Origin: a virus
Length of the DNA: 31,918 bases
Direction: 5' to 3' (one strand)
IMG/VR virus record: IMGVR_UViG_3300031898_000008
Location: 1 to 31,918 of that record
Shown: in pieces, positions 5,069 to 31,918 of the stretch
Layout: each line of letters starts with the position of its first letter
Position numbering within the stretch: the stretch's first letter is position 1
The notes under the pieces: generated by a model
Told to the model about the DNA's origin: nothing
The model's database searches: none
What the model saw: only the letters and a program-made list of their open reading frames with translations
Program-made: the position numbers and the translations under genes

Positions 5069-5371
5069 TTTTTTTCACCATGTGTCCATTCTTAATTTTC
5101 TTGAATCCCATCTTACTCCAGAATCCGACAGATTCGGAGAGAGAAGATAATTCAATTTGACGAATTCTATTATCTTTCCAAAGTTGCTCTAACATTCGAA
5201 AGAAAATTTTACCGTATCCCTTTTTTGATATTTCTCTTCGATGCTAAACCATGTAATCCAAACTTTTGAATTCTCAAGATTTGCATTACATTCTCCAATA
5301 TCAGTTGTTCCATTCAATAGCAGTTTATAGTCGAAGCTTGACACTGCTATTTTAACTGTGCAAAAAGTCAT
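5061..5371 (-). pseudogene. GNAT acetyltransferase, frameshifted at an A6 run
   Basis: The gene starts at ATG 5371 behind a GAGGAG site and reads in one frame to KVWITWFSIEEKYQK. It then hits a run of six A (5221-5226 on the given strand, as T) and ends at 5189 in an unrelated tail. If one extra A is supplied, or the ribosome slips back one base, the reading continues as KGYGKIFFRMLEQL through SVGFWSKMGFKKIKNGHMV to a stop at 5061. The restored product of about 103 residues has the GNAT acetyl-CoA motif (YQKKGYGK) and the C-terminal WSKMGFKKI element. It may be a broken gene, a sequencing error in a homopolymer, or a slippage-expressed enzyme. Substrate unknown. Confidence 0.75.
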
Positions 5372-5697
5372 TTTGTCTCCTCTCTGAGAATGACGCATAA
5401 AAGCGCGTAACTCGCCAAGTCTAACAACGTATCCCGAATCGACTCCGACTTTATAAGTGCTTGATCTTTATTTGCGAGTTGAACAAGGCGCGACCATTTA
5501 TCGCTCATTCGTATTAAGCAACCTTTCCACGCGGGAATCCCAAATTGCTCAGAAAGTCGTAAATTCGAAAGCGGATCTCCTCCCGCGTAGTCGTGATTTT
5601 TTCTACTATGCAAGTCAGCAATTTCTTCAAGCAATGTATAGAATTTCAGATGTCCAAACTTCGGAAGTTGTGAGAATCTTGTTTCTTTGTCACTCAT
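5368..5697 (-). CDS. DUF1599/Nmad1 MazG-like nucleotide protein
   Basis: A 109-residue all-helical protein matching the DUF1599 (nucleotide modification-associated domain 1) pattern: KNHDYAGGDPLSNLRL, then PAWKGCLIRMSDKWSRL, then ESIRDTLLDLASYALL. Members resemble MazG-type nucleotide pyrophosphatases and are often linked to modified-base gene sets in viruses. It overlaps the deoxyribosyltransferase-like gene before it by ATGA (5694-5697) and the GNAT gene after it by ATGA (5368-5371). A role in trimming the nucleotide pool or handling modified dNTPs is inferred. Confidence 0.75.
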   Translation of the reverse strand: MSDKETRFSQLPKFGHLKFYTLLEEIADLHSRKNHDYAGGDPLSNLRLSEQFGIPAWKGCLIRMSDKWSRLVQLANKDQALIKSESIRDTLLDLASYALLCVILREETK

Positions 5698-6104
5698 TGA
5701 AAAAACTCCTCTCTATTCGAATAAAATTCGTTAGCGCAATACCATAACCACGGATGACGTGGACGTTTCTTGTCCTCACAGATTACGATTACATACTTCC
5801 GTTTTACCCACGCATACATGATTTCCATCGACGTTCCAATGATTCGATAATTTCCCTCAGGAATTAATGCACAAATAATATCACATGAATCAAGGAGGTC
5901 AAGATCACTTTCTATGATATCTTTTGCAAAATTGAAGTTAGGATTCTGATAATATTCTCCATCATATTTAGCTTCTAATTCGGTTTCCTTTTCAAACGGG
6001 TTAATTATCTTAGCACTTGGAAATTTCTGCTTTAATTGTATAATGAACAGTCTTTCTTCTTGTGTTCCTCTAAGTTCGAATGAGTGTGCGAAATAGATTT
6101 TCAT
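5694..6104 (-). CDS. Nucleoside 2-deoxyribosyltransferase-like protein
   Basis: A 136-residue Rossmann-like protein. It begins MKIYFAHS (nucleotide/sugar loop), has DLDLLDSCDIICALIPEG in the middle, the GTSMEIMYAW element carrying the expected catalytic Glu, and HPWLWYCANEF near the end. This is the pattern of the nucleoside deoxyribosyltransferase family, whose members move deoxyribose between bases or cut N-glycosidic bonds in (d)NMPs. It forms an ATGA overlap with the DUF1599 gene, so the two are produced together. In a virus with preQ0 genes it could exchange a base on a deoxynucleotide; that is inference. Confidence 0.75.
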   Translation of the reverse strand: MKIYFAHSFELRGTQEERLFIIQLKQKFPSAKIINPFEKETELEAKYDGEYYQNPNFNFAKDIIESDLDLLDSCDIICALIPEGNYRIIGTSMEIMYAWVKRKYVIVICEDKKRPRHPWLWYCANEFYSNREEFFQ

Positions 6105-6343
6105 TTTAGCAATCTTCTCCGCATAAAGTTGAGGAATTTTCCGCAGATTCCTCCAAGCAACAAGTTGAGCAGGAATCCCATTGACGCGGCGGTGAATGCT
6201 TGAGGAAGCGTAATTTGCACGATGAAAATGTCTTTGAGGAAATGCACGGGAATCCAGAAGAGTTGCAATGCTAACGTATCAATCCAAAATTCCTTATCTT
6301 TTAAGCGTAACGCTAAAATTGTTAAATATAGTTTCAAATCCAA
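6101..6343 (-). CDS. Small membrane protein
   Basis: About 80 residues from TTG 6343, which overlaps the end of the polymerase gene. Hydrophobic stretches (LALQLFWIPVHFLKDIFIV and AFTAASMGFLLNLLLGGICG) suggest two to three membrane segments, followed by a basic end (NFMRRRLLK). A holin-like role is possible; no family is recognised. Confidence 0.55.
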   Translation of the reverse strand: MDLKLYLTILALRLKDKEFWIDTLALQLFWIPVHFLKDIFIVQITLPQAFTAASMGFLLNLLLGGICGKFLNFMRRRLLK

Positions 6344-8505
6344 AGTCGCATCTGTCCTCCAAGAATCGACTCGATGGTTTTACGATCAAGATGATGCAAG
6401 ATTCGCATTGCGATCTCCGCTAAACGTGTTTTATAATACTCGTAGTCGAGATCGTAGGTTTCGCTGATTCCTAACGGTTTGAATCCCTTTCGCGTTTTCA
6501 CATAGTTAACTTCGTTTCCCCAAAGATGTTCGATTTTAGCGGCGTCAAGTTGTTGAATGAGATTAGCATACATCGTCCGTGCTTTGTAATCGCGTCGTTC
6601 TTTCGATAGCTCAACTGTCATTGCGAATTTTTCAAGCGGATGTCGTTTTAAATCTCCGTATTGCACGATAATTGGTTGAAGCTCGCAATTGTCAAGCAAC
6701 GCGTGAGCGAGATCGGTCGCGAAATCGTCGCAAATTTTTGGGAGATGTCTTCCTTTAAACCCGCTTCCGTGAAAGATCAACTGTTTATCTTTGCGCAGGA
6801 TGTAGTTTTTCTCTTCGTAGAAAATGCTATCATCGTATTGCTCGCTTTCAAGCTTGAAATAACTTGAATCGTAAAATTCAGGGATTAAAGAGCGGATGTA
6901 TTCAATTGCTTCCTGTGTGATGCCAACGCCTTGATAGTAAAGTCCATCTGTGTCCACTTCAATCCAATCGACTTCCCTCGTGAATTTCTCGATAATTTGT
7001 TTAACGCAAAATCTTCCAAGCGCGGTTACGAGCGCGGCGATCGGAGCGCATCCTGCACGCGCGTAACGCATTCCGTGAAATCCGTAAATTGAATTCATCA
7101 AAATTTTAATCGCCCATTGGCGCGACGTCACAAGTTCATCTTGCGCTTGATACTTCAACTCTTCGCGCATTCGCATAAACTCGCGTATTTTCAAGCGTGT
7201 AATACTGTCGTGCGTAAGATCGATTGAACATTTTATCTGTCCAATCTTATTGTCGTCGATTTCGATAACTCCGCGTTCAGAGAAATCAATTTTATTTGTA
7301 TAAGGTGTGATCAAAAGCAAGCGCACGGTTTCAGGAGAGAGATTAAACGCGGCACAGATTGAGGGATACAACGATTTATAGTCAATCTTTTTGATTCCCG
7401 CGAACAATCCTTTTTGAAAAAGTTTCGTATAAGCTCCCTGATACGACCTTTTCTCCTCTTTGAAAAATTGGGGATAACGAGTTTGGTTGTCGTGGTCACA
7501 TACGATGTTAAGCTTTGCAAGTTCGCGCATATAGAGCAAGGTCGGAATGTGGGAAGGTGCGCGATCAACAACCAAGTTTAACGGAAGCTTAAGCATCTCT
7601 GCAAGTGCGAACAAGTTTTTGAGATAGTGTTCCGCAAGCAGGTAAGTTAAGCGCGCATCGTTTAAGCAGTATTCACGTAATTGCTCACCTGAAAGTTTTG
7701 AAATATAGTTGCGGTCAACTTCGATAATCTTCTCTTTCGGAAGCAAAGTTTTAGCAACGGTTTTCAATTGCTTATTTTTGATTCCAAGTAACGATTGATC
7801 TTCGTCAACTTCGCGGTAAACGTCGAAATGGATTCGCCCGCTTAAGTCAACGTATGTGCTTTTCCGCTTGCGTTTCATCGCTTTAAATCTCTTTTGGGAA
7901 ATGAGTGGTGGAGAAGAATCACGACCTAGCGCGGGATTAATGCGTAAAAGTTCGCACCGTCTCACAAAGTATGGAATATCAAAGCTTCCCGACGCGTAAC
8001 CCGCGAGAACGCAAGGGTTAACTTGTTTCAACACACGCAAGAAACTTAGAATAATCTCTCTCTCCTCTCCTACCCAGCATTCCTGCAAATCTTTTGAGTA
8101 AAACGAAATTGCACCAATCGGATCGAATTCGACGCGCGCAAACTGCCCTTTCGTCAAGATTTCAAGATCAAAGCTCGCATAAGTCGGAAGTTTACTTTCT
8201 TCACTCAATCCTTGATCGATCACGACACGTTGCACGAAAGGAATATCATCCTCTAAACTTCCGCTCCAGCGTGAATCTTCCAACCAATCGGTTCGTGCAA
8301 ACTCACAACGATACAATTTTGTAAGCTCGAAAGTTGAAAGCACTCGTTTCTCAACTTGCACACATCTAACCGCACGCATCGAACGCTCAGGAGCGTAAAA
8401 GTAAGGGTTAAACGGAGGTTGCACCCTACGCGCTTTCCCTCCTACGCTTACAAGTTCTAGCAAGCATTGATTTCCCGTATTGATTGTTCTTGCTTTAAGT
8501 AGCAT
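6334..8505 (-). CDS. polB: Family B DNA polymerase with 3'-5' exonuclease
   Basis: Replicative DNA polymerase of about 723 residues. Exo I is YASFDLEI (D113/E115), Exo II is YASGSFDIPYF (D176) and Exo III is YCLND (279-283). Polymerase motif A is KIDYKSLYPSI (D375), motif B is KILMNSIYG (K467-Y474) and motif C is EVDTDG (D518/D520), with a KNYIL element later. All catalytic residues are present, so proofreading and synthesis should both work. ATG 8505 is preferred over ATG 8529 because GGTGGAAA lies just before it and the upstream start has no ribosome site. It overlaps the primase gene by about 11 bases, a shared replication operon. Confidence 0.96.
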   Translation of the reverse strand: MLLKARTINTGNQCLLELVSVGGKARRVQPPFNPYFYAPERSMRAVRCVQVEKRVLSTFELTKLYRCEFARTDWLEDSRWSGSLEDDIPFVQRVVIDQGLSEESKLPTYASFDLEILTKGQFARVEFDPIGAISFYSKDLQECWVGEEREIILSFLRVLKQVNPCVLAGYASGSFDIPYFVRRCELLRINPALGRDSSPPLISQKRFKAMKRKRKSTYVDLSGRIHFDVYREVDEDQSLLGIKNKQLKTVAKTLLPKEKIIEVDRNYISKLSGEQLREYCLNDARLTYLLAEHYLKNLFALAEMLKLPLNLVVDRAPSHIPTLLYMRELAKLNIVCDHDNQTRYPQFFKEEKRSYQGAYTKLFQKGLFAGIKKIDYKSLYPSICAAFNLSPETVRLLLITPYTNKIDFSERGVIEIDDNKIGQIKCSIDLTHDSITRLKIREFMRMREELKYQAQDELVTSRQWAIKILMNSIYGFHGMRYARAGCAPIAALVTALGRFCVKQIIEKFTREVDWIEVDTDGLYYQGVGITQEAIEYIRSLIPEFYDSSYFKLESEQYDDSIFYEEKNYILRKDKQLIFHGSGFKGRHLPKICDDFATDLAHALLDNCELQPIIVQYGDLKRHPLEKFAMTVELSKERRDYKARTMYANLIQQLDAAKIEHLWGNEVNYVKTRKGFKPLGISETYDLDYEYYKTRLAEIAMRILHHLDRKTIESILGGQMRLWI

Positions 8506-10660
8506 TTTCCACCGACTCGCTAGGAGCATTTTCGAGTTCTTCGATTTTCCGAATTATTCGAACTGGGATATGAGCAACGACTTCTTTCTCAAGCAATGTT
8601 TTAGATGACGGTTCTAAAAATCTAAAAAATCGTTTTTCATGGATAATTCCGATTTTTTCGAACTCAGAAACCCAGTTCTCGGTTTTCCCGAACAAGTCGA
8701 CAAGGTGAATCTTAACTTCTTTCACTTCGGAAAAAACATCCAAATAATAATTTATTGGGCGTCCCCGTCCGTTTACCTTCATCGATCTTTTTATAAGCTT
8801 GCCTTCTTCTACAAACTTGTTTAACCATTTTCTCGCTCCATCTGCGGATAAAAGTGCAGTCTGCGCGAGTGATTCGCTAGTTAATAGTTTTCCTAGACTC
8901 AAAATCTCTTTACACTTTTTGATAATTTCTTTCGATCTTTTTGAAACCCCTGCAAAAGTTCCAATGATAGCTTCATTTCCATTCTCCCATGCATATAAGA
9001 AATCTTGAGGTAAACATACGATGTGAACATTTCCTGCTTTATCCGTATATTGAGGTCTAACCCTAAAGTTCGTCAGCGCGCTCGCTTCAATTGCTTTACA
9101 AAGCTTCTCCGTATCCCTTCTTACGCGTGCATATTGAGGATTAAGTAACTCTTTCAAAAGTGTCGCGTATGGAATAATAAACTTCTTTGGAGCTTCACTC
9201 TCAATAATTTTAACGGCACATCTTACAACACATTTTTGCTCAGATGTATCCACGCGTTGATCGTTAGGAACTTCTCTTTGAACAAGAATATGATTTCTTA
9301 CAGGTTCATTAAGTTCAAATAGAGTTTCCATTTCCCAGATTCGGTTTTCAAATTCGGGCGGAAGTTCGATTTCGGTTGAAGTAGTAATAATATTTCGAAC
9401 GCTTGTTTCATGTTTCGTCGTTTTGAAAACTCCAGTTTCGGGATCTCTTGCAACAACGAGAACAGTTAACTTTCCCTCGGAAATCGTAAGTTTTAGATCA
9501 TATTCGGCGGTTGATTCTTCCTCTGCTTTACTCTTCATCGCACGCCGTTCCGCGAGATATAAGGTTTGGATTGATTCTGGAAGATAGCGAATCGACTTGT
9601 CGGTTAGTCCCGTTACTTTCGTCCAAGATTCTAATGGAAAACATTTTAACACCGCTTCAACAAGCGCATTTTTTCCTGTTGCAGATTCTCCTGACATTTC
9701 TAAACTTTCCGCGATCAAATTGAGCAAGAACAAAAACTTTCGTTTCTCTTCTTCTCCGATAATTTCTGCGCTTGCATCTGTAACGAATTCAAGTAACGCT
9801 CCGTCTTTCTCTAGCAGTTTGTTTGCTTTCTTGACGACTTCGGGTGAGAACTCTTCGAATTCGCTTTCAGTAAACTTGTAGCTGTAGGGTTCTTTAGGTT
9901 TAAACGCTGATTCAACTATTGTTTTTAACTCGCATTCTTCTAGTGGAGGTTTATTGCTCTTATTCCACTTACGTAATTTTTCAAAGGTTTCTTCCTTGCT
10001 TAACTCTTGCTTGCGATACCATGTCGCTAATCTGATTCCCGCTTCGTTTCTTCCACCTGTTTCAACCCCTTGCAAAATCTGTTTAATGTTTACTTCTTCA
10101 AGCGAAATGGGAATGTCGAAGTGTTGTTTCAATTTAGCGAGAAATTCAAATTTGAAATCTCCTTCCCAACGCTTAATCGGAATTCCGAAAGTAGAAAGCA
10201 GAGTGTAAAACTTTCCGCTTGGATGTTTTGACGGAGGAGCGATAACATATCCTCCTTCACCTTTAACGTCAACTCCTAACTCCGTCAACTTGAAAGATGA
10301 AACGGGAATATCGGTCTTGAAATAAACGTGAACTCCACGAGCAGTTTTAACAACTATTGTATCCTTGCAAACTCCGCTTCCGAGTACTTTCTCAAAAATT
10401 GATTCCTTATCAAAGTCGATCACCGCAAGATTGTCACTGATTGCTCCACAAATAATTCCGACGTTTAATCCCGCTTCAATAAGTTTTAACTCTTCTTCGG
10501 ATGATTTCTCGCGTTGAAATTTCTCCCATGCGACAAAAGGTGCTTTGGTTTCCACGATTACAGGAATGAGATTCAACCCTTGTGCAAGATAATAATTAAT
10601 GTAATCTCGAATCGAAATTCCCGTTCTCTCTTTTCGATCTTGCAGTTTTCTAAGATTCAT
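8495..10660 (-). CDS. Primase-polymerase fused to a P-loop helicase
   Basis: A 721-residue replication initiator. The N-terminal AEP-type Prim-Pol domain shows the metal-binding VIDFDKE (D82/D84), ARGVHVYF (H111) and LGVDVKGEGGYVIAPPS (D131). A helical PriCT-like linker with TGGRNEAGIRLATWYRK (about 201-217) follows. The ATPase has Walker A SGESATGKN (323-331) and a Walker B-like LYLAER (about 367-372). The C-terminus looks like a winged helix (ALLSADGARKWLNKFVEEGK). It would lay primers and unwind DNA for the adjacent PolB. The FolE stop overlaps its ATG start (ATGA at 10657-10660). Confidence 0.92.
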   Translation of the reverse strand: MNLRKLQDRKERTGISIRDYINYYLAQGLNLIPVIVETKAPFVAWEKFQREKSSEEELKLIEAGLNVGIICGAISDNLAVIDFDKESIFEKVLGSGVCKDTIVVKTARGVHVYFKTDIPVSSFKLTELGVDVKGEGGYVIAPPSKHPSGKFYTLLSTFGIPIKRWEGDFKFEFLAKLKQHFDIPISLEEVNIKQILQGVETGGRNEAGIRLATWYRKQELSKEETFEKLRKWNKSNKPPLEECELKTIVESAFKPKEPYSYKFTESEFEEFSPEVVKKANKLLEKDGALLEFVTDASAEIIGEEEKRKFLFLLNLIAESLEMSGESATGKNALVEAVLKCFPLESWTKVTGLTDKSIRYLPESIQTLYLAERRAMKSKAEEESTAEYDLKLTISEGKLTVLVVARDPETGVFKTTKHETSVRNIITTSTEIELPPEFENRIWEMETLFELNEPVRNHILVQREVPNDQRVDTSEQKCVVRCAVKIIESEAPKKFIIPYATLLKELLNPQYARVRRDTEKLCKAIEASALTNFRVRPQYTDKAGNVHIVCLPQDFLYAWENGNEAIIGTFAGVSKRSKEIIKKCKEILSLGKLLTSESLAQTALLSADGARKWLNKFVEEGKLIKRSMKVNGRGRPINYYLDVFSEVKEVKIHLVDLFGKTENWVSEFEKIGIIHEKRFFRFLEPSSKTLLEKEVVAHIPVRIIRKIEELENAPSESVENAT

Positions 10661-11133
10661 TTTATCCTCGCCTTTAACAGTTGAAGAGTCCGCAACATTG
10701 CGCTTTCATTCTTAAACCCGCGCGTTGTAAGTGTGATCGTTTTAGCGCGCTTCTTAACACCACGCGCAAATACGCAGAAGTGCAACGCTTCCACGCGCAC
10801 GATCAAGCGTTTAGGGTTAAGCATTCGCCAAATCGCGTCGCAGATTTGTTCCGTCATACGTTCTTGGAGTTGGAGTCGATGCGCGTAGTAATCCACGATG
10901 CGCGCAAGCTTTGAGAGTCCCGCAAGCTTTTCATTGGGAATATAAACGATACTCACAATTCCGAAAAACGGAAGGAAATGATGCTCACATAAACTAACGA
11001 ATTCAATTGATTTCTCGATGACGGGAGTTGAACGAGTAGAAGCAAAAGTTTTGTTTAATATTTCATGTTCTTGTATTTCATATCCTGATAGAAGTTCCCG
11101 CATTGCTTCCTGAAACCGTCGCGTAACGATCAT
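10657..11133 (-). CDS. folE: GTP cyclohydrolase I (first step to preQ0)
   Basis: A 158-residue enzyme that opens GTP to dihydroneopterin triphosphate, the entry point of both folate and 7-deazaguanine synthesis. The zinc site is intact: SLCEHHFLPFFG (C49, H52) and HFCVFARGV (C120). The core LSKLARIVDYYAHRLQLQERM (split here as LSKLARIV and RLQLQERM) is nearly canonical. Compared with the E. coli enzyme (about 220 residues), the N-terminal extension is missing, as in compact viral versions. It lies with QueE in the replication operon, which argues for deazaguanine rather than folate use. The QueD and QueC steps are not encoded in this window. Confidence 0.95.
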   Translation of the reverse strand: MIVTRRFQEAMRELLSGYEIQEHEILNKTFASTRSTPVIEKSIEFVSLCEHHFLPFFGIVSIVYIPNEKLAGLSKLARIVDYYAHRLQLQERMTEQICDAIWRMLNPKRLIVRVEALHFCVFARGVKKRAKTITLTTRGFKNESAMLRTLQLLKARIK

Positions 11134-11137
11134 ATTT

Positions 11138-11371
11138 TTACTTCCCAGTATAATCTTCCGCGCTGATCATTACGTCGTCAAAAAGAAGATTGAGTTTTTC
11201 AAGAATGTAATGTAAATCAATGTATGAATTGGAAAGTTCTTCAATCAGTGCGATAACACAGTGACATTTCCCAGAATTTTTAATGTCTTCCATCCGTCGC
11301 GCTAAGAGATGAATTCGCTTAAGTAGTTCTAACTGTTCACGCGTGAAACCTATCTCTTCTTGAGCGGGCAA
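11138..11371 (-). CDS. Hypothetical protein between folE and queE
   Basis: A 77-residue helical protein starting at TTG 11371, with GAGGAG at the end of queE as its ribosome site. It has a KCHC pair (about residues 35-38) in the helical region but no HxH or Cys pattern of QueD, so it is not a recognisable 6-pyruvoyl-tetrahydropterin synthase homologue. Its place between two preQ0 genes suggests a related role, but the sequence does not show one. Confidence 0.6.
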   Translation of the reverse strand: MPAQEEIGFTREQLELLKRIHLLARRMEDIKNSGKCHCVIALIEELSNSYIDLHYILEKLNLLFDDVMISAEDYTGK

Positions 11372-11375
11372 TTGC

Positions 11376-12062
11376 TTAAACTCCTCGCTTTAAACCCCAA
11401 AGCAGTTTGTGAACTTGTGGAAGAACGCGCACGTTGGTGAAAGTGAGTCCGATTCTTGCCGCCTGTTCAAGTAACGGGAGAACGTCAAGCGTTGTGAATC
11501 CTTCAGGTTGCAAAATGAGAGGTTGAAACCACGGCATCAACATACGGATAGACATTGCATACTCCAAATCTTGCTCATTCGCGATTACAACCTTAATCTC
11601 CTTCGCGTAGGGAATTAGATCGTGATTTGACCTCATTCCACTTGAAGGGGGTTTCATATCCATACTCACAACATCGCAGAGTTCGAACGCGTCAACGTTC
11701 TTGATAGTTCCGTTAGTTTGAAGTTGAATCCAAAAGGTTTCTTTCTTCAACGCGCGAATTAAATCAGTGATCTCGCTTTGAATGAGAGGTTCTCCGCCTG
11801 TAATACAAATCGCACGGCATACGTGAGCATAAGCGCATTTTCTAATTTCGGCGAGAACTTCCACAAGCGACATCTCCTTTCCTTCATCGAACGCATATTT
11901 TGTATCACACCAAGAGCATCTCAAGTTGCATCCTGTCGTCCTCACGAAAACCTGCGGCATTCCGACGTTCAATCCCTCTCCTTGAATCGAAAAGAAAATC
12001 TCACAAATTTTCCTCGCTTGAACAACTCCTCTAACGGGTGATATGTGCGAGCAAAAACGCAT
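11376..12062 (-). CDS. queE: 7-carboxy-7-deazaguanine synthase (radical SAM)
   Basis: Radical SAM enzyme that contracts carboxy-tetrahydropterin to 7-carboxy-7-deazaguanine, the third step to preQ0. It shows the family start CEIFFSIQGEG, the cluster motif CNLRCSWCD (C45, C49, C52) and the SAM-binding TGGEP (88-92). The 228-residue length is normal. The start is unclear: ATG 12062 has no good ribosome site and lies 94 bases inside the nuclease gene, while the usual family N-terminus would begin near residue 17, where only an ATT codon is available. It pairs with folE in the same operon. Confidence 0.93.
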   Translation of the reverse strand: MRFCSHISPVRGVVQARKICEIFFSIQGEGLNVGMPQVFVRTTGCNLRCSWCDTKYAFDEGKEMSLVEVLAEIRKCAYAHVCRAICITGGEPLIQSEITDLIRALKKETFWIQLQTNGTIKNVDAFELCDVVSMDMKPPSSGMRSNHDLIPYAKEIKVVIANEQDLEYAMSIRMLMPWFQPLILQPEGFTTLDVLPLLEQAARIGLTFTNVRVLPQVHKLLWGLKRGV

Positions 12063-31846: not shown

Positions 31847-31918
31847 CTATTCGAATTCAATTGTCGCCGGAGGCTTATCCGTAATGTCGTAGAGGACTCG
31901 CACAACCGAAGGTAGCCT
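31847..31918 (-). CDS. guaA: 3' end of host GMP synthase (partial)
   Basis: The minus strand reads LPSVVRVLYDITDKPPATIE and ends in FE plus stop. This is the C-terminal signature of GMP synthase, where VxYDITxKPPxTIEWE closes the dimerisation domain that helps bind XMP. Only the last 23 codons are inside the window. It marks chromosomal DNA and the right edge of the provirus. Confidence 0.88.
   Translation of the reverse strand, partial: RLPSVVRVLYDITDKPPATIEFE

Follow-up and report, generated by a model that had tools for sequence, protein, structure and literature searches.

A gene of the NDT/DNPH1 family recurs in viral que/dpdA clusters and lies in one gene run with FolE, QueE and PolB in an archaeal-type tailed virus

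A gene of the NDT/DNPH1 family recurs in viral que/dpdA clusters, a link for which no description was found in the literature searched and which is more secure than the pathway proposed below. One member of this family is encoded in the stretch of viral DNA analyzed here (IMG/VR record IMGVR_UViG_3300031898_000008, positions 1 to 31,918; hereafter the window, meaning all 31,918 nucleotides), where positions 5368-12062 are a single run of genes linked to replication in a tailed virus of archaeal type. Since relatives of the protein are found inside known guanine-modification clusters, this virus may have a new way of placing an altered guanine in its DNA. The explanation that we tentatively prefer overall, with a probability of roughly 0.38, is that FolE and QueE would feed a base into a pathway in which DUF1599 and an NDT-like protein acting on dNMPs prepare a nucleotide that PolB inserts.

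The run comprises eight genes, all on the minus strand, in the order QueE, a short ORF, FolE, PrimPol, PolB, a membrane ORF, NDT and DUF1599 from right to left. By their coordinates, neighboring genes from QueE to DUF1599 are separated by 4 bp or less or overlap throughout. QueE (11376..12062) matches phrog_2076 (E=3.5e-41) and the PDB QueE entry 5tgs (E=4e-28) and carries the CxxxCxxC motif, while its match to TIGR04349 (E=8.6e-43) is below the cut-off of that family. FolE, a GTP cyclohydrolase I (10657..11133; PF01227, E=2.2e-49; PDB 1wm9, E=2.8e-32), has both zinc/catalytic motifs, CEHH and HFC. An earlier note on this DNA had called FolE and QueE clear, and the family, PDB and motif matches bear this out. 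Between the two, with a 4-bp gap on either side, lies a 77-aa ORF (11138..11371) that had no family match in family and profile searches. The end of FolE overlaps by 4 bp the start of a primase-polymerase (8495..10660) with Prim-Pol (PF09250, E=4.8e-17) and PriCT_1 (PF08708, E=1.1e-10) domains and a C-terminal extension, and this is followed by the family B DNA polymerase PolB (6334..8529; PF00136, E=3.7e-24). An 80-aa ORF (6101..6343), which from its sequence is probably a membrane protein and which had no PHROG match, overlaps both PolB and the gene for the DmtZ/DNPH1-like NDT-superfamily protein (5694..6104). The latter overlaps DUF1599 (Nmad1; 5368..5697; phrog_1485, E=1.1e-18; PF07659 just below cut-off) by 4 bp, so that the same note was also right to place an NDT-like gene overlapping DUF1599 in one strand block with PolB.

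Membership of the 5694..6104 product in the NDT superfamily is settled by profile and predicted fold. Pfam gave a sub-cutoff match alone (PF05014, E=5e-5). An NDT profile (A4) searched against the PDB matched transferases and hydrolases both, with T. brucei NDT at E=4e-8. An AF2 model made with an alignment of 19 sequences (pLDDT 88.5, pTM 0.83) was matched by Foldseek to NDTs, DNPH1 (E=8.8e-5), CMP N-glycosidases and a designed phosphodeoxyribosyltransferase (4hx9, E=2.4e-4), with 7o62 at E=1.2e-6. Tyr4, Pro36, Gly90 and Glu94 are invariant in the 19-sequence alignment, and the catalytic Tyr, Asp and Glu of NDTs are present as Y4, D67 and E94. Six residues before the catalytic Glu, classical NDTs have an Asp, which we take to be Asp92 in the L. 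leichmannii numbering, and Rcl and BlsM have a Ser. The window protein has Ile88 at this position and most of its homologs, including those in que clusters, have Ser. A classical nucleoside NDT was rejected because this Asp is missing. Pro36 aligns with a proline of transferases, and Rcl and CMP N-glycosidase have no proline there. Judged by the active site, the predicted substrate is a dNMP and not a nucleoside, and we propose that the protein would be a dNMP N-glycosidase or a deoxyribose-5-phosphate transferase.

DmtZ is a dNMP hydrolase/deoxyribose-5-phosphate transferase that swaps bases on DNA building blocks; it pairs the proline of the transferases with a 5' pocket free of acidic residues, a mix that the window protein shares, and its active-site set is Tyr6, Pro57, Asn77, Val98, Gly99, Glu103 and Trp124 (PMC12884076). 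The equivalents in the window protein are Y4, P36, D67 (Asp for Asn), I89, G90, E94 and W119. The DmtZ of Gordonia phage Ghobes, gp53, carries all of the residues named for DmtZ in that paper, and a single BLASTP comparison of gp53 with the window protein gave 24% identity over 76 residues (E=8e-7). In GenBank this gp53 (L150 42692-43177) bears the annotation deoxyuridine triphosphatase.

Scans of viral contigs with single NDT, FolE and PolB proteins found nothing, so alignments were used as queries instead; a first QueE alignment of 6 sequences yielded no usable pattern. When viral contigs were scanned with three NDT sequences, 29 loci were recovered, two of them in records that had supplied seeds. 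QueE and QueD were both present in 7 of the 29 NDT records, namely the two seeds G029 and G053 together with G058, G075 and G076-G078, the last three of which appear near-identical. Because PF01702 is a poor detector of DpdA in phages (1/50), PHROG families were used for it instead. The gene order is QueE-QueC-QueD-FolE-DpdA-NDT in contig L127 and QueE-(GAT)QueC-QueD-NDT-FolE...DpdA in L128. Contig L062 has three overlapping genes, for a TIM-barrel protein, NDT and QueD, and then QueE, and in L104, L120 and L126 NDT adjoins a DpdA of phrog_887. G029 has NDT, the full pathway and DpdA in one record.

In a collection of named phages the subfamily was found in eight distinct phages. Its setting is QueE-x-QueC-QueD-NDT-FolE...DpdA in Aminobacter phage Erebus, QueE-x-NDT-QueC-QueD-FolE...DpdA in Rhizobium phage RHph_X3_2 and QueC-FolE-DpdA...NDT in Edwardsiella phage ZHS; it is also present in HRTV-29, for which DpdA is reported as encoded. 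A que cluster lies within a few kb of NDT in three of the eight, and at the background QueE frequency of 0.54% (275/50,697 records) the chance of this is P ~1e-5, a rough value since the query was taken from a que cluster and the phages are related by descent. The que/dpdA-linked NDT members fall on several branches of a tree with DmtZ as its root, and the window NDT stands beside those of G029 and G051 with local support of about 0.8. Only 2 of 50 QueE-bearing viral contigs had an NDT match.

In G029 (archaeal-type; L099 14210-15119) NDT begins 1 bp after a phosphoribosyltransferase (PF00156), and the complete preQ0 genes, among them one for a FolE2/MptA-like protein, and DpdA are elsewhere in the record, away from NDT. 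TIM-barrels of phrog_15826 (L062 8109-8744; L109 10389-11090) adjoin an NDT-like gene and have a weak cross-match to phrog_887; they are possibly an unrecognized branch of DpdA. L004, listed as Acinetobacter phage MD-2021a, has the bacterial gene order cysU-cysW-cysA, dapD, queE, queC and so may be a bacterial contig.

In the pathway that we tentatively prefer, FolE and QueE would raise the supply of a 7-deazaguanine base (CDG/preQ0), and the host would carry out the steps of QueD and QueC; preQ0 is made by archaea for tRNA archaeosine. DUF1599 would convert a dNTP, most simply dGTP, to a dNMP, and the conserved active-site residues suggest that the NDT-like protein would act on this dNMP via a covalent Glu94-deoxyribose-5-phosphate intermediate. 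Its action would end either in release of the base or in transfer of the sugar phosphate to the 7-deazaguanine base, which would yield 7-deaza-dGMP. Kinases would then take this to the triphosphate for insertion by PolB, whose gene is the second one upstream of NDT. That a DmtZ-like enzyme builds 7-deaza-dGMP for insertion by PolB, which would be a DpdA-independent route acting before polymerization, and that the family is an unrecognized accessory of que/dpdA clusters, we consider plausible but less likely than not.

The preferred pathway is favored by the eight-gene run with its short gaps and overlaps and by the presence of the subfamily inside que/dpdA clusters of unrelated phages and of the IMG/VR contigs L127, L128 and L062. 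The Tyr, Pro, Glu and Trp shared with DmtZ, together with the lack of an Asp six residues before the Glu, point the same way, as does the repeated coupling of NDT to small dNTPase-like genes. For this coupling there is a precedent acting before polymerization, with another base, in the DmtZ and dNTP pyrophosphohydrolase of Z-phages (PMC12884076). Against the pathway count the scarcity of NDT among QueE-bearing contigs, the Ile of the window protein where que-cluster homologs have Ser, and the lack of QueD and QueC in the window. 7-Deazapurines, which are without N7, are generally poor partners for N-glycosidic exchange, which counts against it as well; DpdA and TGT do insert 7-deazapurines despite the missing N7. 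The earlier note had a deoxyribosyltransferase build a deazaguanine deoxynucleotide before polymerization, and this idea is partly supported by the contiguous block, the DmtZ precedent and the link of the subfamily to que/dpdA genes, with the predicted substrate becoming a dNMP and not a nucleoside.

For DUF1599 a MazG-like fold is suggested by an AF2 model (pLDDT 69) whose Foldseek matches, including DCTPP1, HisIE-type proteins and YpjD, all had E>2, and we propose that the protein may be a MazG-like dNTP pyrophosphohydrolase. NDT recurs with a small dNTPase-like gene, which is DUF1599 in the window and in G051, a PF18909 dATP/dGTP diphosphohydrolase in L111 and DUF6378 in HRTV-29. DUF1599 is also widespread in phages without annotated que neighbors, such as crAss-like, Pelagibacter, Methylophilales and Geobacillus phages. 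It is therefore not evidence for deazaguanine, and as a marker of DNA modification it is weakened. The Geobacillus gene that precedes DUF1599 was considered as an NDT and rejected. The archaeal-type virus L016 has in its record a DUF1599 56% identical to that of the window, along with QueD, a multi-helix transporter-like ORF, QueE, FolE, QueC and a DpdA-like TIM barrel; its PolB is interrupted by an intein-like insertion.

A search of a sister virus for the same gene set, as had been suggested, returned PolB, NDT and DUF1599 and no que or dpdA gene. In this virus, G051, NDT overlaps PolB by 4 bp, DUF1599 is 59% and PolB 37% identical to the window copy, and none of FolE, QueE, QueD, QueC and DpdA was found in the record. 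This counts against the preferred pathway and, with the wide occurrence of DUF1599 in phages without annotated que neighbors, would be expected if NDT and DUF1599 formed a general module for the dNTP/dNMP pool or for salvage, and FolE and QueE separately raised preQ0 for host tRNA archaeosine or a host DpdA. NDT relatives also adjoin a dNMP kinase (BDU-MI-1), a dCMP deaminase and dGTPase (L114) and the phosphoribosyltransferase of G029, and the NDTs that are frequent in haloviruses have been assigned to pyrimidine metabolism (PMC8651126), which likewise counts for a pool function. Such a function leaves unexplained why the subfamily is found inside que/dpdA clusters of several lineages, and it does not account for the fused order of the window genes. 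We regard it as the main rival and a serious possibility, if short of an even chance.

Among the other viruses with que genes and NDT, all of those examined for DpdA (G058 was outside that check) have a DpdA-type protein, so NDT is not seen in its place. This too weighs against the preferred pathway and, together with the G051 module free of que genes, leaves the earlier suggestion that the NDT-like protein takes the place of DpdA unsupported. Since NDT co-occurs with DpdA, its role in deazaguanine clusters could be the salvage or clearing of dGMP and not insertion. The NDT-like protein might then be a one-way, DNPH1-like dGMP N-glycosidase that breaks down ordinary dGMP, such as that from degraded host DNA, and leaves intact 7-deaza-dGMP, which for want of N7 would resist cleavage. 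The pool would be biased, or guanine/preQ0 base recycled, where DpdA or another enzyme modifies guanine. With DpdA present an inserting enzyme is not needed, the PDB matches of the L062 homolog are the hydrolases BlsM, Rcl/DNPH1 and MilB, and most homologs have, like Rcl and BlsM, a Ser six residues before the Glu. We nevertheless judge a one-way hydrolase unlikely in the window, where the invariant Pro36 aligns with the transferase proline absent from Rcl and CMP N-glycosidase, and where no DpdA was found.

The record, a linear virus contig of 31.9 kb, may be incomplete. Pfam searches of it for QueC, QueD and TGT (PF01702) were empty, with working controls, nor did nine DpdA-type/TIM-barrel, three QueD and two QueC proteins find a match by tblastn. 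The absence of QueD, QueC and DpdA/TGT from this possibly incomplete record, reported before from the letters, is thus confirmed, and PF01702 and the nine proteins found no dpdA-like gene elsewhere in the element. PurZ was not among the family matches of the 20 window proteins covered by a general family scan. Elsewhere in the record are an integrase, a portal gene, a capsid gene and an Hjc-like nuclease, and the terminase is nearest to that of Halogranum tailed virus 1 (31.9%). We infer an archaeal host. At the right end (31847-31918, minus strand) the sequence can be read as the final 23 codons of guaA (RLPSVVRVLYDITDKPPATIEFE), and with the integrase at the left end a provirus-host junction at guaA is possible. 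No direct repeat of the contig ends was found, and searches of genome contigs for the host by terminase and by a guaA C-terminal pattern gave no match. That QueD, QueC and DpdA complete a standard post-replicative DpdA route from an unseen piece outside the contig, as the full pathway and DpdA-like TIM barrel of L016 and the unmeasured completeness of a linear contig would allow, is improbable, since the contig, with its integrase and guaA tail at opposite ends and its terminase, portal and capsid genes, looks near-complete.

The window shares FolE and QueE with the viral preQ0/G+ pathway of phages 9g and CAjan, which includes DpdA (PMC6884629), and differs from it in having an NDT-like gene and in that QueD, QueC and DpdA were not found. 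It resembles the DpdA-less deazaguanine viruses, the Campylobacter phages and halovirus HVTV-1 (PMC6884629), in having part of the preQ0 pathway without DpdA, but modification is reported in those viruses and is a prediction for the window virus. A modified-dGTP route for the Campylobacter phages and "undetected 2'-deoxyribosyltransferases" had already been suggested (PMC6884629). With DpdA-less viruses, the route and such enzymes all in that paper, the novelty is smaller than first claimed. By what means some viruses have deazaguanine DNA although they lack DpdA is an open question (PMC6884629), for which the NDT-like protein offers a specific candidate enzyme that can be put to the test, and the NDT/DNPH1-family genes in the que/dpdA clusters of the named, cultured phages Erebus, RHph_X3_2 and ZHS can be tested directly there.

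Among enzymes, DNPH1/Rcl, MilB and BlsM share with the window protein the fold, the catalytic Tyr/Asp/Glu and the lack of an acidic residue at the 5'-hydroxyl-binding position, but differ from it in that it has a proline of the transferase type and an Ile for the conserved Ser. Compared with DmtZ, the window has Asp67 for Asn77, DUF1599 in place of DutZ/DUF5664, and a proposed 7-deazaguanine base where that of DmtZ is 2-aminoadenine. The two are alike in belonging to the NDT superfamily, in their shared active-site equivalents, in being encoded with a dNTP pyrophosphohydrolase (a proposed one in the window) and in their context of phage DNA metabolism.
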